From positions 1 through 42,740 of the forward strand of contig CANRPN010000006.1 of the NCBI GenBank assembly GCA_947632505.1: a DNA stretch of 42,740 nucleotides. The letters run 5' to 3'. The position numbers and the translations under genes were made by a program. This document shows positions 2,840-42,326 of the stretch, piece by piece (within the stretch, counting starts at the first letter, position 1; the number at the start of each line of letters is the position of its first letter). Source of the DNA: an uncultured Clostridia bacterium (GTDB lineage Bacteria > Bacillota > Clostridia > Christensenellales > Borkfalkiaceae). Below the pieces are notes generated by a model. The model did no database searches and was not told where the DNA came from. It saw only the letters and a program-made list of their open reading frames with translations.

Positions 2840-3841
2840 ATGGCTCTGTTTGAAGGTTATGAAAGAAGAATCGAAAAAATCAATGCAACGCTCAAAGAGT
2901 ACGGCATCTCCTCCGTGGAAGAGTGCAGAGAGATCTGCCTTTCCAAGGGCGTAGATTGCGATAAACTTGTGCGCGGGACCCAGCCCATTTGCTTCGAGAA
3001 TGCCGTTTGGGCATACACCGTCGGCGCGGCGATCGCGATCAAGAAAGGCTGCACAAAGGCAGCGGACGCAGCGGCTGCGATCGGCATTGGGCTGCAATCG
3101 TTCTGCATTCCCGGCTCCGTCGCCGAGAACAGAAAGGTGGGCCTCGGCCACGGCAATCTCGGCAAAATGCTCCTGTCCGAAGAGACCGATTGCTTCTGCT
3201 TCCTCGCGGGACATGAGTCCTTTGCGGCCGCAGAGGGCGCGATCTCCATTGCGATGAACGCCAACAAGGTGCGTAAAAATCCGCTCCGCGTCATCCTGAA
3301 CGGCCTCGGAAAGGACGCCGCATTCATCATCTCCCGTATCAACGGCTTCACCTATTGCGAGACCGTGTTCGATCCCTACACCGAGACCGTCACCGTTACC
3401 AAGGAAGTTCCTTATTCGAACGGCCCCCGCGCAAAGGTCAAGTGCTACGGCGCGGACAACGTTCCGGAGGGCGTCGCGATCATGAAGCTGGAAAAGGTCG
3501 GCGTGTCCATTACGGGCAACTCCACCAACCCCACGCGCTTCCAGCACCCCGTCGCAGGCACCTACAAGAAGTGGTGCAACGAGAACGGTGTGAATTATTT
3601 CTCCGTGGCCTCTGGCGGCGGCACGGGCAGGACCCTCCATCCCGACAACATGGCGGCGGGCCCTTCCTCCTACGGCATGACCGATACGATGGGCAGAATG
3701 CACTCCGACGCGCAGTTCGCAGGCTCTTCCTCCGTTCCCGCGCACGTGGAGATGATGGGACTGATCGGCATGGGCAACAATCCGATGGTCGGCGCAACGG
3801 TTGCCGTCGCAGTCGCCGTGCAAGAGGGAATGAACAAGTAA
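2840..3841 (+). CDS. GGGtGRT family protein
   Basis: A 333-residue protein named for its signature, seen here as ASGGGTGRTLHPDN at about residues 257-270. It is followed by a conserved MGRMHSDAQFAGSS segment and a glycine/alanine-rich C-terminus (LIGMGNNPMVGATVAVAVAV). No signal peptide or membrane segment is visible. The function of the family is not established to my knowledge. The ORF track starts at 2747, but AAGGAGGTGCAACATG places the start at 2840, after the stop of the scaffold gene. The tight two-gene unit suggests the two products work together, perhaps in Fe-S or redox chemistry (inference). Confidence 0.88.
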   Translation: MALFEGYERRIEKINATLKEYGISSVEECREICLSKGVDCDKLVRGTQPICFENAVWAYTVGAAIAIKKGCTKAADAAAAIGIGLQSFCIPGSVAENRKVGLGHGNLGKMLLSEETDCFCFLAGHESFAAAEGAISIAMNANKVRKNPLRVILNGLGKDAAFIISRINGFTYCETVFDPYTETVTVTKEVPYSNGPRAKVKCYGADNVPEGVAIMKLEKVGVSITGNSTNPTRFQHPVAGTYKKWCNENGVNYFSVASGGGTGRTLHPDNMAAGPSSYGMTDTMGRMHSDAQFAGSSSVPAHVEMMGLIGMGNNPMVGATVAVAVAVQEGMNK

Positions 3842-4490: not shown

Positions 4491-7400
4491 ATGAAGTCCA
4501 AAAGGAAACTTCTTTTCGGAATTTCCGCAATGATACTCTCCGGCACGATGGTGTTTTCGGCGGTGCTGCCCAATTTGCAGCCGTCCGGGAACACGTTGTC
4601 TGCCAACGGCGGAAGCGAAAAGGGTGAAGTGACCGATGTTACCGGTTCAGTCAGCGCCGATCTCACGCAATATTTCGATAGCTCTGTTGTAGAAAAACTT
4701 CCGGAGGCGGTAACCGGGGATCAGGAGATCTCCGTGATCCTCAGCCTGGATACCGATACCGTGCTCGATCAATATCATGCCGCCGACACCGACCTGTCGA
4801 TGGGCGAGTATGCCGCGTCCCGCGCGGGCAAAGCCGTTTCCGCTTCCATCGAAAAACAGTGCAATGCGCTCCTCACCAAACTCTCGAATGCGGGCGTCAA
4901 ATACGAAGTGGGCAACCGCTTCGATACCCTTCTCGGCGGCGTGGAGGTCACCGTGAAGGCGAGCGCGTTTGATCAGCTCTGCAATGCCGTCAAGGGCAAA
5001 GCGGGGGTCATGGTCGGCGAAGTGTATGCTCCGTGCGAAACGCAAGTCGTCGAAAATGACGTCAACGTCTACGATACGGGTATTTTCGACAGCTCCGATT
5101 CCGAATACGACGGCACCGGTACGGTCATCGCCGTGCTCGATACCGGACTTGACTATACGCACACCGCGTTCGATCCCGCCCGTTTCACCACGGACACCGC
5201 TTCGGACGTGATCACCATGGACACTCTCCGTACTGTCATCGGCCAGCTCGAAGCTGCGCAGACGACGCCCGGCCTTCAACCCGCAAACGTCTATCTCAAC
5301 CGCAAGGTGCCCTATGCGTACGACTATGCGGACGGGGACGATGACGTTTCTCCCATCAACAACGAACACGGCACGCACGTTGCGGGCATCATGGTCGGCA
5401 ACGACATTGACGTCAATCCCGAAGGCATCAGAGGGGTCGCGCCCAATGCGCAGCTCGCCGTGATGAAGACTTTCTCGGAAAAAGCGGACGGCGCAAAAAC
5501 TTCGTGGATCATCGCCGCTTTGGAGGACTGCGTCAAACTCAAAGTGGACGTCATCAACATGTCCCTCGGTACGGCCGCAGGCTTTTCGAGAGAAGTGGAC
5601 GAGGACATCCGCTATGCGGTGTACGACAGGATCAAGGAAGAGGGCATCAGCCTTGTGGCGGCCGCTTCCAACAACTACAACGCGACCTTCGGTTCGGAAA
5701 AGAACGGCAACCTCGGCCTTACGAGCAACCCCGACTCCGCGACCGTCGGCGCGCCCTCCACTTACGACGCGGCGCTCTCCGTCGCCTCTATCAGCGGCGT
5801 TAAAACGCCCTATCTCGTCTACAACGGACAGATCGTCTATTTCACCGAGGCTTCGGACAGCGCGGCAAAGCCCAAGGATTTCGTGAACGAAATTCTTGCG
5901 GAAGGCGTACGGCAGGGCATTGTCTCCGCGGCGGAAGATACCCATGAATTTGAGTACGTCATCATCGACGGTATCGGGAATGCGCAGCAGTTTGTACCCT
6001 ATGCGGATGGCAGCCTCAACGGCAAGATCGCCCTGGTCAAGAGAGGACAAACCAATTTCGAAGAGAAGGCCGGTCTTGCCCGCCAATACGGCGCGGTCGG
6101 CTGCATCATCTTCAACAATGTCTCCGGCGATATTTCGATGAACGTCGGCCGTTTGGGCGACTTCCCCGTCTGTTCCCTTTCCCAGGTGGACGGCGAAATG
6201 TTGCAGAGGGGAGGCAACGGCAAGATCACGATCAGCCGCAGCCAAAAGGCGGGTCCCTTCATGTCCGATTTCTCCTCTTGGGGCCCCACTCCAGACCTTC
6301 GTATCAAGCCCGAGATCACGGCCCACGGCGGCGATATTTATTCGGCGATCCCCGGCCAGAGCTACGACCGTATGTCGGGCACTTCTATGGCGTCGCCCAA
6401 CCAGGCGGGCGTCACGGCGCTTGTCCGCCAATACGTAAAGGACAACTTCGGTTTCGACGGAAACGATCCCGCCACGAGACAGCAGATCGCTGCGACCGTC
6501 AACCAGATCATGATGTCCACGACCGACATCGCGACCAACAAGAACGGGCTTCCTTTCTCGGTCAGAAAACAGGGCTCCGGGCTCGCCAATCTTGAAAAGG
6601 CGACTCACTCCAAGGGCTATTTGCAGACCTTCGACCGCGACACGCACGAGATCATGGACAAGGCCAAGATCGAACTCGGCGACGATCCCGATAAGACGGG
6701 CGTCTATACGATGAAATTCAACATCGTCAACATCGGGCAGAGCGCGCTCAGCTATGACGTGAGCGCCGTCGTGATGACGGAGGGCGTGAGCGAGATCCTC
6801 ACCTACAAGGGCGATACCACCGTCACGCAGGAAGGGTATCTCCTCGAAGGTGCGGACATTTCGGTGACAGCCGTTGAAAACTGCACAAATTCGGACAACA
6901 AGGTCACGGTGGAAGCGGGCAAAACAGGTACGGTCACCCTCACTGTCACCCTCTCCGAAGAGAACAAGAAATATATCGACAGTTCTTTTAAGAACGGTAT
7001 GTACGTAGAGGGCTTTGTCACCTTAAAGGCAAACGGCACGTCTTACGACTTGAACGCGCCGTTCCTCGCCTATTACGGTTCCTGGCACACGGCGCCGATG
7101 TTCGACCTCGACTATTTTGCGACCAACGCAGACGAGCTCGACGACAGCAAGGAGACCCTGGAAAAGACGCTCCCCGATGCCTATGCCACCCGTCCCGTCG
7201 GCGGATTGTATAACGATTACATCTCGTATCTCGGCTCCTTCCCTTATTTGCAGGATCCCAACAGCACGAATAAGATCGCGGCGGACAGAGATCACATCGC
7301 GCTCACCAACCAAACGGGCGAATACGGCGGCATCAACTCCATCAACAGCGTACAGCTCGGGCTTCTTCGCGGCGCAAAGCGCATGGTGGCGACCGTCACC

Positions 7401-40676: not shown

Positions 40677-40712
40677 CGCCGCCCGAGGCATTTCGCCTTG
40701 GGCGGCGTATTT
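40677..40712 (+). terminator. Terminator of the ribosomal operon, within a repeat copy
   Basis: CGCCGCCCGAGGC (40677-40689) pairs with GCCTTGGGCGGCG (40695-40707) around ATTTC, with one G-T pair, then TATTTTG. It is the first hairpin of a 55-bp repeat found again at 41858. Confidence 0.75.
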
Positions 40713-40733
40713 TGTTGTCGCAAATAACAACGC
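40679..40733 (+). repeat. 55-bp two-hairpin repeat, copy 1
   Basis: CCGCCCGAGGCATTTCGCCT, then GGGCGGCGTATTTTGTTG and CGCAAA..AACAACGC. It matches 41858-41912 at 52 of 55 positions, all three differences being C to T type. A GC-rich hairpin is followed by a small TTGTTG/TAACAA hairpin. Confidence 0.85.
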
Positions 40734-40770: not shown

Positions 40771-40803
40771 AAGCGCCCCGCGATTTTATACCGTGGGGCG
40801 CTT
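40771..40803 (-). terminator. Terminator of the minus-strand zinc-ribbon gene
   Basis: AAGCGCCCC (40771-40779) and GGGGCGCTT (40795-40803) form a nine-pair stem. On the minus strand it is followed by TTTTTTATTT, placing it just after the stop of the minus gene at 40819. Confidence 0.8.
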
Positions 40804-40818
40804 ATACAAACGAAACCG

Positions 40819-41280
40819 TTATTTGTTCGTTAGCTTTAAGATGGATTTCAGTTTCTTATCCATCATCACGCTTGCTTTGGACGCGTCTTTCGAGGTCATC
40901 TTTTGAAGGAATGAAACGGTGTTCCCGCAGTGTGGGCAAGTGATCATGCAGGTAAAACTGAACGTGGTTCCCGTATATTTCCCAGCGTTGTCGTACTTAT
41001 CTTCCTTTTGATGGCACACATAGGAATATTCCACCCGCTCGTCCGTATCCCCCATATATTTCTGACATTCTGGGCAAATGGCGTGAAGTCTATCTTTGGC
41101 AATGGCATATGCGCATATAGCCGCCACAATGCCTGCAAACAGAAAGACGAATCCGATGTACGTAAGCCACGTAACACCCGTCATTCCAATCGCAATCAGC
41201 ACGATGCCGAGGACAAGTCCCACAACCGCGGCGAGTGCAAAGCCCTTGACCGATTTGAATACTGCTTTGAATCTGTTCAT
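40819..41280 (-). CDS. Small membrane protein with a cytosolic zinc-ribbon-like tail
   Basis: A 153-residue protein on the minus strand with two adjacent hydrophobic helices (about 14-36 and 38-62). The C-terminal part carries CPECQKYMGD, a lone Cys in YVCHQKED, and TCMITCPHCGNTVSF, a likely zinc ribbon from two CxxC pairs. The ribosome binding site GGAGAAAAATAAA precedes its ATG. No known family recognised. It is divergent from an XRE-type regulator and its own terminator lies at 40771-40803. Both probably respond to the shared operators (inference). Confidence 0.8.
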   Translation of the reverse strand: MNRFKAVFKSVKGFALAAVVGLVLGIVLIAIGMTGVTWLTYIGFVFLFAGIVAAICAYAIAKDRLHAICPECQKYMGDTDERVEYSYVCHQKEDKYDNAGKYTGTTFSFTCMITCPHCGNTVSFLQKMTSKDASKASVMMDKKLKSILKLTNK

Positions 41281-41301: not shown

Positions 41302-41323
41302 TTTGCACCTATATAAGTGCAAA
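41302..41323. promoter_or_regulatory. Operator 1, 22-bp palindrome
   Basis: TTTGCACCTATATAAGTGCAAA: half sites TTTGCACCTAT and TTTGCACTTAT agree at 10 of 11 positions. It covers the expected transcription start of the minus-strand gene. The same 22-bp form recurs at 41360. Confidence 0.75.
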
Positions 41324-41326
41324 ACT

Positions 41327-41355
41327 ATCATAACATTTGATTATAATAAAGTCAA
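41327..41355 (-). promoter_or_regulatory. Promoter of the minus-strand zinc-ribbon gene
   Basis: On the minus strand: TTGACT (complement of 41350-41355), 17 bases, TATGAT (complement of 41327-41332). The start site would fall in operator 1. Confidence 0.75.
41342..41347 (+). promoter_or_regulatory. Likely -10 box of the XRE regulator gene
   Basis: TATAAT on the plus strand; the -35 at about 41319-41324 (GCAAAA) is poor and overlaps operator 1. A start near 41354 would sit just before operator 2. It lies within the minus promoter spacer, so the two promoters overlap. Confidence 0.5.
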
Positions 41356-41359
41356 GCGT

Positions 41360-41381
41360 TTTGCGCCTATTTAGGAGCAAA
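41360..41381. promoter_or_regulatory. Operator 2, 22-bp palindrome over the regulator's ribosome binding site
   Basis: TTTGCGCCTATTTAGGAGCAAA shares 17 of 22 positions with operator 1; its half sites agree at 9 of 11. Its AGGAG (41373-41377) is the ribosome binding site of the regulator gene. The two sites are 58 bp apart, centre to centre. Confidence 0.75.
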
Positions 41382-41387
41382 AAATTC

Positions 41388-41618
41388 ATGAATATTGTAG
41401 TGGAAAAAAAGATCGGAGCAAATCTCAGAAAAATTCGGGAGCGAGCCGGCATGACGCAAGAAGAATTATCGGTAAAATTGCAACTCAACGGGTGCGATAT
41501 TACGCGGAGTGCGGTTGCAAAAATCGAGGTAGGACAACGCCACTTGTATCCGGATGAAATCGTTTTGATGCGGGCGATCCTCAAAACGACTTATGAAGAA
41601 ATATTTTTGCTCGAATAA
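41388..41618 (+). CDS. XRE-family helix-turn-helix transcriptional regulator
   Basis: A 76-residue, single-domain Cro/CI-type DNA-binding protein: IGANLRKIRERAGMTQEELSVKLQ (helices 1-2), then DITRSAVAKIEVGQRHLYPDEIVLMRAIL (recognition helix and core) and a short YEEIFLLE end. The track ORF starts at 41337 inside the promoter; the ATG at 41388 follows AGGAGCAAAAAATTC. It has no ligand domain. It is divergent from the zinc-ribbon membrane gene, and twin palindromes between them suggest it controls both (inference). Confidence 0.88.
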   Translation: MNIVVEKKIGANLRKIRERAGMTQEELSVKLQLNGCDITRSAVAKIEVGQRHLYPDEIVLMRAILKTTYEEIFLLE

Positions 41619-41630
41619 CCTTGTTATTTA

Positions 41631-41668
41631 AGTAGACCCCGCGTCGCTTTTGCGACGCGGGGTCTACT
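41631..41668. repeat. Perfect 17-bp hairpin downstream of the regulator
   Basis: AGTAGACCCCGCGTCGC, loop TTTT, GCGACGCGGGGTCTACT: 17 perfect pairs. No T run follows on the plus strand. It may stop transcription of the regulator in a non-canonical way or be a palindromic repeat; the TTTT-loop style resembles the third arm of the 73-151 cloverleaf. Confidence 0.8.
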
Positions 41669-41857: not shown

Positions 41858-41912
41858 CCGCCCGAGGCATTTCGCCTCGGGCGGCGTATTTTGTTGCCGC
41901 AAACAACAACGC
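41858..41912 (+). repeat. 55-bp two-hairpin repeat, copy 2
   Basis: CCGCCCGAGGC (11 bases) pairs perfectly with GCCTCGGGCGG around ATTTC; then TTGTTG-CCGCAAA-CAACAA forms a second hairpin. A T run (GTTTTTTG) follows at 41913-41919. It matches copy 1 at 52 of 55 positions. Confidence 0.85.
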
Positions 41913-41947: not shown

Positions 41948-42130
41948 CGTCATGCTGAGCCGAAATACAGATACGCATTCCGCAGAAGAAAGTCTGCGAG
42001 TAATTGTCATTTCGACCGAAGCCGAAGGCAGAGCGGAGAAATCTCAACATTGTTTTTAATAATGAGGTAGAGATTTCTCGACTACGCTCGGAATGACATT
42101 TTTTAGAACATTGCGCGGCTCGGAATGACG
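41948..42130. repeat. Nested palindromic REP/MITE-like unit A
   Basis: Outer arms CGTCATGCTGAGCCG (41948-41962) and CGGCTCGGAATGACG (42116-42130) match at 12 of 15. Inside, 42006-42097 runs from GTCATTTCGACCGAAG..GGAGAAATCTC to GAGATTTCTCGACTACGCTCGGAATGAC, another inverted pair. The type (GTCATTTCGACCGAAG...GAGAAATCTC) is a known kind of intergenic repeat in many bacteria. It has no coding sense. Confidence 0.85.
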
Positions 42131-42152
42131 GAAGAGCAAAGATGGTGGGCCG

Positions 42153-42326
42153 CGTCATGCTGAGCCGAAATGTGGATACGTAAGAAAGTCTGCGAGTAAT
42201 TGTCATTTCGACCGATGCCGAAGGCAGAGCGGAGAAATCTCAACATTGTTTTTAATAATGAGATAGAGATTCGTCGACTACGCTCGGAATGACATTTTTT
42301 AGAACGTTGCGCGGCTCGGAATGACG
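42153..42326. repeat. Nested palindromic REP/MITE-like unit B
   Basis: A second copy of unit A, 205 bp downstream, with the same outer arms (42153-42167 and 42312-42326) and inner element (42202-42293, 92 bp as in A). It differs by small indels in the left part and a few base changes (GATTCGTCGAC in place of GATTTCTCGAC). Confidence 0.85.

Follow-up and report, generated by a model that had tools for sequence, protein, structure and literature searches.

When the CI repressor of phage lambda acts at OR, the site that closes one promoter is placed so that it activates the regulator's own weak promoter. In the C-protein systems that control restriction-modification (R-M) genes, polymerase is recruited to the gene of the controller itself from a distal operator, and a proximal operator represses that gene at high level (PMC4321490). 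RcoLS20 of Bacillus subtilis pLS20 is a single regulator that acts through two operators on overlapping divergent promoters and operates as a real switch (PMC4207663). In Streptomyces the XRE-DUF397 and WhiJ-BldB pairs consist of small XRE genes beside small partner genes (PMC6262351, PMC10294661). The locus described here has features in common with all of these; it probably encodes a dedicated local repressor, itself autoregulated, of a divergent gene that can be exchanged.

The window (the whole stretch of DNA that was analysed, 42,740 nucleotides) carries two matching 22-bp dyads exactly where the original prediction had placed a pair of operators between an XRE regulator gene and a divergent membrane protein gene. 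Operator 1 (TTTGCACCTATATAAGTGCAAA, 41302-41323) has 10 of 11 dyad pairs and operator 2 (TTTGCGCCTATTTAGGAGCAAA, 41360-41381) has 9 of 11; the two are 58 bp apart, start to start. A combined dyad pattern, with up to three mismatches allowed, matched only these two sites in the window, where 100 shuffles gave an expectation of 0, and the genome search that had been proposed as a check also returned these two sites only (draft genome, 1,794,184 bases in 130 contigs). Operator 1, the strong dyad, overlaps both the predicted start of the minus-strand transcript (about 41320) and the -35 position of the xre promoter; the claim that it covers the start of the minus-strand gene therefore holds for the transcription start and not for the start codon at 41280. 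Operator 2, the weaker dyad, lies over the xre leader, just upstream of the minus-strand -35, and does contain the xre ribosome binding site as claimed (AGGAG, plus strand, 41372-41376, 11 nt before the ATG at 41388).

A search with the XRE protein in 201 genomes of the same family gave 15 close matches (L003-L017). The upstream regions of 14 of these, from six genera, were compared, L016 being left out because of a start region that could not be aligned; the upstream arrangement is shared by all 14, with the second site barely or not recognisable in two (L008 and L010). A scan of GTDB genomes with the alignment of these proteins added 80 further loci, mostly from uncultured gut Clostridia of rabbit, goat, deer, sheep and other animals and from Ruminococcus flavefaciens; the scan patterns required [VIL]AKIEVGQ or RH[LI]YPDE[IV][IV], so the conservation of those residues is partly built in. 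A class-wide protein search yielded 17 new loci, 15 of them with operator 1. The operators had no role in any of these three protein-based selections. After duplicates were removed there were 100 distinct loci, 85 found via the protein and 15 via the operator. The opposite of a lack of conservation upstream of homologues was seen: operator 1 scored at least 17 bits in 94 of the 100 distinct loci and in 80 of the 85 relatives selected by protein. Its consensus, TTTGCACCTATATAGGTGCAAA, is near-invariant (columns 1-20 are 67-100% conserved in the 94 loci), and conservation drops to background directly upstream, no column exceeding 60% before position 0. Operator 2 was found in 79 of the 94 loci, at a score which shuffled spacers reach in 0.09% of cases, and is weak or absent in some. 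The spacing between the operators in these 79 loci is 58 bp in 47, 57 bp in 21, 59 bp in seven, 60 bp in three and 55 bp in one. One further locus, L176, has the operator pair with the strong site second.

The strongest test of the pairing between operator and XRE is the search made with the operator only: among 396 genomes of the order it found one site in each of 23 genomes, and all 23 sites adjoin an XRE homologue, with identities from 45% up. In the 14 family genomes every site with 0-2 mismatches is at the xre locus, and two weak sites with three mismatches lie elsewhere. The finding of one operator locus per genome led to the rejection of a regulon and speaks for control that is local, of xre and of its divergent neighbour; the operators and XRE are best described as a dedicated local pair. 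The original prediction of the operators, and of a local XRE regulator acting in both directions, is thus well supported by the comparison as far as sequence tells, the overlapping promoters and the exchange of partners having been overlooked. Upstream of more distant XRE genes (L018, L019 and L021) there is possibly the same two-site layout with a different operator, about TTCTTTATTACGAAAC; it scores above all shuffles only in L021, is suggestive and not significant in L018 and L019, and may point to a further specificity within one switch design.

Two predicted promoters in opposed orientation occupy the DNA between the operators. That of the partner, on the minus strand, is near consensus, with a -35 hexamer TTGACT at 41350-41355 (consensus TTGACA, at the exact place with 0-2 mismatches in 90 of 94 loci) and, after a 17-bp spacer, a -10 hexamer TATGAT at 41327-41332 preceded by TG; the spacer is 17 bp in 85 of 94 loci, and the predicted start falls inside operator 1. 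The xre promoter, on the plus strand, has the -10 hexamer TATAAT at 41342-41347, found at the exact offset in 92 of 94 loci (perfect in 78), with a start predicted near 41354, and lacks a recognisable -35, the best match in any of the 94 loci being 3 of 6. When operator 1 is numbered 0-21 in the 94-locus alignment, the minus-strand -10 (TATAAT) reads from 30 to 25, the plus-strand -10 (TATAAT) occupies 40-45, the minus-strand -35 (TTGACA) reads from 53 to 48 and operator 2 lies at about 58-79. Since the two opposed promoters share the same DNA they could hardly be occupied together. The centre of operator 1 is at about -41.5 relative to the predicted xre start, a start placed from the -10 alone; a centre at about -41.5 is the position of class II activators and of lambda CI on PRM. 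The first candidate for the xre promoter (TTGCAC/TTTGCA-TATCAT) was dropped in favour of the invariant TATAAT at 41342-41347, as its -10 needs a column with 54% T.

The xre gene (41388-41618, plus strand) encodes a 76-aa protein that consists of a DNA-binding domain only and belongs to HTH_3 (PF01381; 34.5 bits against a curated cut-off of 23, residues 13-71). Its model is a five-helix domain (pLDDT 95.6), and the best solved fold matches are the R-M controllers C.BclI (2b5a) and C.AhdI (1y7y), nearly full length, with TM scores of 0.82 and 0.81 and Foldseek E-values of 0.0015-0.002; C.AhdI is also matched by a sequence profile (E 0.0011). The recognition-helix region, residues 35-52, is almost invariant, as is GCDITRSA (residues 35-42), which lies outside the scan patterns. 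Cys36 (41493-41495), which directly precedes the recognition helix, does not vary in any aligned row with residues at that place, and might possibly act as a redox sensor. Otherwise no signal, inducer or sensor domain for the switch is apparent. A type II antitoxin of the HipB/Y4mF type is not indicated, TIGR03070 giving 23.9 bits against an NCBIfam cut-off of 71.65, and Xtr of C. difficile, a 47-kDa protein with a different site, was rejected as the same regulator.

The R-M controllers (C.BclI, C.AhdI, C.Esp1396I and C.Csp231I) are among the closest known systems: they too are small single-domain XRE proteins with this fold and no further domains, and they likewise have two operators ahead of the controller gene, of which the distal one sits in a position for activation and the proximal one covers the start of that gene (PMC4321490). 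However, no R-M genes adjoin xre and no R-M family appears in the Pfam tallies shown for 77 partners; the operator is built on TTGCACC and not on GACT/AGTC; the distal site here additionally covers the start of a strong divergent promoter; and the main target is divergent, with a promoter that overlaps the regulator's, the partners being unrelated to each other. With RcoLS20 the locus shares a helix-turn-helix regulator, two operators and overlapping divergent promoters (here predicted), of which the strong one serves the target and the other the regulator, but the sites are single 22-bp dyads 58 bp apart rather than multi-site operators of CAGTGAAA repeats separated by a 75-bp gap, the divergent gene in the window is not a conjugation gene, and no anti-repressor or signal peptide is seen (PMC4207663). 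The likeness to lambda CI at OR lies in the repressor fold (1lmb is among the fold matches of the XRE model) and in the position of operator 1, which could close one promoter from where it can activate the regulator's own weak promoter; unlike OR, there are two sites instead of three, no Cro and no lytic genes, and XRE lacks the C-terminal cooperativity or cleavage domain. The module in the window has no prophage or lytic genes next to it, as a CI/Cro immunity region would, and a search of viral contigs with XRE found one distant relative (51%) without the operators. In the Streptomyces pairs there is one recurrent partner family beside xre, whereas here the partner varies by species and the operators stay constant.

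The divergent partner in the window (40819-41280, minus strand) is a membrane protein of 153 aa with CxxC pairs; its matches to zinc ribbons all stay below curated cut-offs. The membrane gene named in the original prediction holds for the window, but it is only one among more than 40 types of partner, the version that this species has of an exchangeable gene. As a conserved partner it was rejected: the close orthologues L004-L017 do not have it next to them, and L033 is the single named relative that does. In 83 of 94 loci a divergent ORF was accepted (p 4e-15 against one half), the median distance from operator 1 being 24 nt. Among the 78 loci whose divergent ORF is well formed there are 44 clusters of partners, 35 of them single. 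Pfam searches on 77 partners gave zinc ribbons (10), BspA-type leucine-rich repeats (6), YpsA SLOG (4), DUF6809 (3), MazE/AbrB-like proteins (3), collagen-like proteins and many single families; by a crude composition check about 12 are lipoprotein-like and 15 combine CxxC with a transmembrane segment. PADLOC matches that might point to a defence role of the partners are only scattered, with one or two members each. In a control on the same 74 loci the downstream neighbours of xre fall into 71 clusters and the partners into 43; partners recur more than random neighbours, yet are far from fixed. When the nine recurrent partner families are placed on the xre tree (219 columns, most branches weak), 20 changes are needed where the minimum is eight. 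The SLOG and the repeat/lipoprotein groups are scattered on it, and recruitment of the same SLOG family on repeated occasions is suggested. SLOG-like (YpsA) partners are found on scattered branches at L044, L052, L058, L104, L106 and L174.

No divergent ORF was accepted in 11 of the 94 loci; some of these have more distant genes, and in at least five (L070, L092, L093, L094 and L110) no divergent gene is evident. A decay of the partner promoter in the absence of a partner was looked for and not seen (n=11); the outward promoter is intact, and in those of the 11 loci that lack any divergent gene each hexamer has 0-1 mismatches. Either the partner has been lost in recent times or the promoter also serves the switch itself; selection on it may not come solely from the partner. 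In L078, also one of the 11, a T-box leader (4521-4734) precedes a large ORF in the divergent transcript beside the module. This ORF is presumably valS, in which case the target there would be a core translation gene.

Six Ruminococcus loci (L062, L082, L086, L095, L100 and L105) have kept both xre and the genes further upstream, which we take, from their sequences, to be a DUF3794-like gene and spoIVA, with different genes in between; L095 is from the cultured Ruminococcus flavefaciens SAb67. L105 and L086/L095 are well-supported tree neighbours (SH-aLRT 98 and 96) with 87% DNA identity over the stretch that runs from operator 1 through xre. The alignment of L105 with L095 starts at base 4896 of both, which is the first base of operator 1; identity is 2/10 just before this junction and 9/10 just after it, the upstream value being background. 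The partner appears to have been changed in place between spoIVA and xre, at a site that stays fixed, and homology returns at the operator 1 edge. The module is patchy, present in 19 of 391 genomes of the class and with a close match in only three same-genus genomes among those listed, which fits gain and loss.

The proposed mechanism treats the two operators, the opposed promoters that overlap between them and the small xre gene as a self-contained control module, the target of which would be whichever gene sits divergently upstream. A dimer of XRE would take operator 1 first and block the strong partner promoter at its start site, and repression of the partner by XRE is likely. From the same site XRE would recruit polymerase to xre; this step is proposed because operator 1 is centred about 41.5 bp upstream of the predicted start and the xre promoter has no -35, and by itself it is about as likely as not. 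The layout agrees with activation from a distal and repression from a proximal site as in C-protein systems, and resembles self-activating switches such as the R-M controllers and lambda PRM. At higher levels XRE would fill the weaker operator 2 in the xre leader and so cap its own synthesis. At low levels, polymerase on the partner promoter would exclude the overlapping xre promoter, so that the state in which the partner is ON would tend to maintain itself. Bistability on this basis is a tentative suggestion, rather doubtful at present. Over evolution the module would stay while the partner is replaced, the junction lying at the edge of operator 1 in the resolved case. Equally speculative is the fullest form of the idea, a portable switch of gut Clostridia capable of memory, in which a self-activating regulator and its bidirectional promoter are kept as a unit, unrelated surface, zinc-ribbon, SLOG and other genes have repeatedly been grafted at the operator 1 edge, and the ON and OFF states are heritable.

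The arrangement could be read more simply. Many small XRE proteins are simple autorepressors, and here XRE might use operator 1 to repress the two promoters and operator 2 to block its own leader; there would be neither activation nor memory, and the partner would be held at a low, tuned level. Operator 1, which overlaps both the partner start and the xre -35 position, could indeed repress both genes, and the layout alone is compatible with this; but the xre promoter lacks a -35 in every locus, operator 1 lies at an activator-like offset, the nearest folds are those of dual activator-repressors, and so fixed a geometry is not obviously needed for repression alone. Plain negative autoregulation is a serious alternative, though not the favoured one. 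Alternatively, dimers on the two operators could join and loop out the promoter region in the manner of RcoLS20, where two operators also accompany overlapping divergent promoters (PMC4207663); the spacing held at 57-60 bp would suit this, and C.Csp231I also bridges separated sites. However, 58 bp is about 5.5 helical turns, which places the sites on opposite faces, a loop formed here would fall short of the 75 bp seen in pLS20, and some loci have operator 2 only in weak form or not at all; looping seems improbable.

The role of the partner may also be questioned, for its families change freely and the outward promoter is retained in those loci that have no divergent gene: the module might regulate only itself, the upstream gene being a passenger on a conserved outward promoter that is kept since promoter competition serves xre control. 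A one-site regulator without a target has no obvious benefit, however, and divergent ORFs occur much more often than chance would give and lie near operator 1, with families that recur far more than those of the downstream neighbours; this explanation is unlikely. More weight attaches to the suggestion that the module is a mobile unit which inserts upstream of genes and not a fixed gene whose partner is replaced. Its patchy distribution, its different sites in most species and its presence on a fragment filed as phage would all be expected of such a unit, but no flanking repeat common to the loci and no integration signal was found, the Ruminococcus flanks that were searched for repeats holding only terminators and dispersed repeats, and in Ruminococcus flank and xre stay while the partner changes. 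Insertion of a mobile unit is thus a possibility to be kept in mind, if the less probable one. The fragment in question (L199; MT837333.1, reverse complement) comes from the human gut, is filed as unverified phage and may be bacterial DNA; it carries operator 1 with three mismatches at 2911-2932 and an XRE 74% identical at 3001-3219.

Returning to the preferred reading of a local repressor with an exchangeable target, no description of the module was found in the open-access literature, nor a paper on its core operator or on DUF6809, and such a motif is absent from the text of a C. thermocellum binding-site survey. As a rule a local regulator and its target evolve jointly. In this case the regulator, the operators and the geometry of the promoters have hardly changed in many genera and the target appears to have been replaced repeatedly, at least one exchange having its junction at the edge of the operator; this combination of an almost unchanging switch with an exchangeable target is, on the comparative evidence, the larger finding. 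If confirmed, the module would be a plug-in control part provided by nature and would account for the way in which genes newly acquired by gut bacteria obtain ready-made regulation. With a promoter block of about 80 bp and a protein of 76 aa, lambda-like bistability without a sensor domain is directly testable.

In the window the module lies beside a ribosomal protein operon, its neighbours being rplQ, a membrane protein gene and a truncated remnant. A hairpin with a T-run (40771-40802, minus strand) is the likely terminator of the partner gene, and a perfect GC-rich hairpin (41631-41668, plus strand) follows xre, which consequently appears to be a one-gene transcript. A terminator-like 55-bp repeat, 95% identical between its copies at 40679-40733 and 41858-41912, lies on either side of the module and has no further copy in the draft genome; as a mobility signal it was rejected, as it looks like a local rearrangement involving the rplQ terminator. 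A junction at CCGCCCGA links the second copy with the remnant of a gene of which the relative L033 has a longer version. Further along, at 41986-42326, are two direct repeats of 145 nt (97% identical, 196 bp from start to start), with many smaller dispersed repeats nearby.
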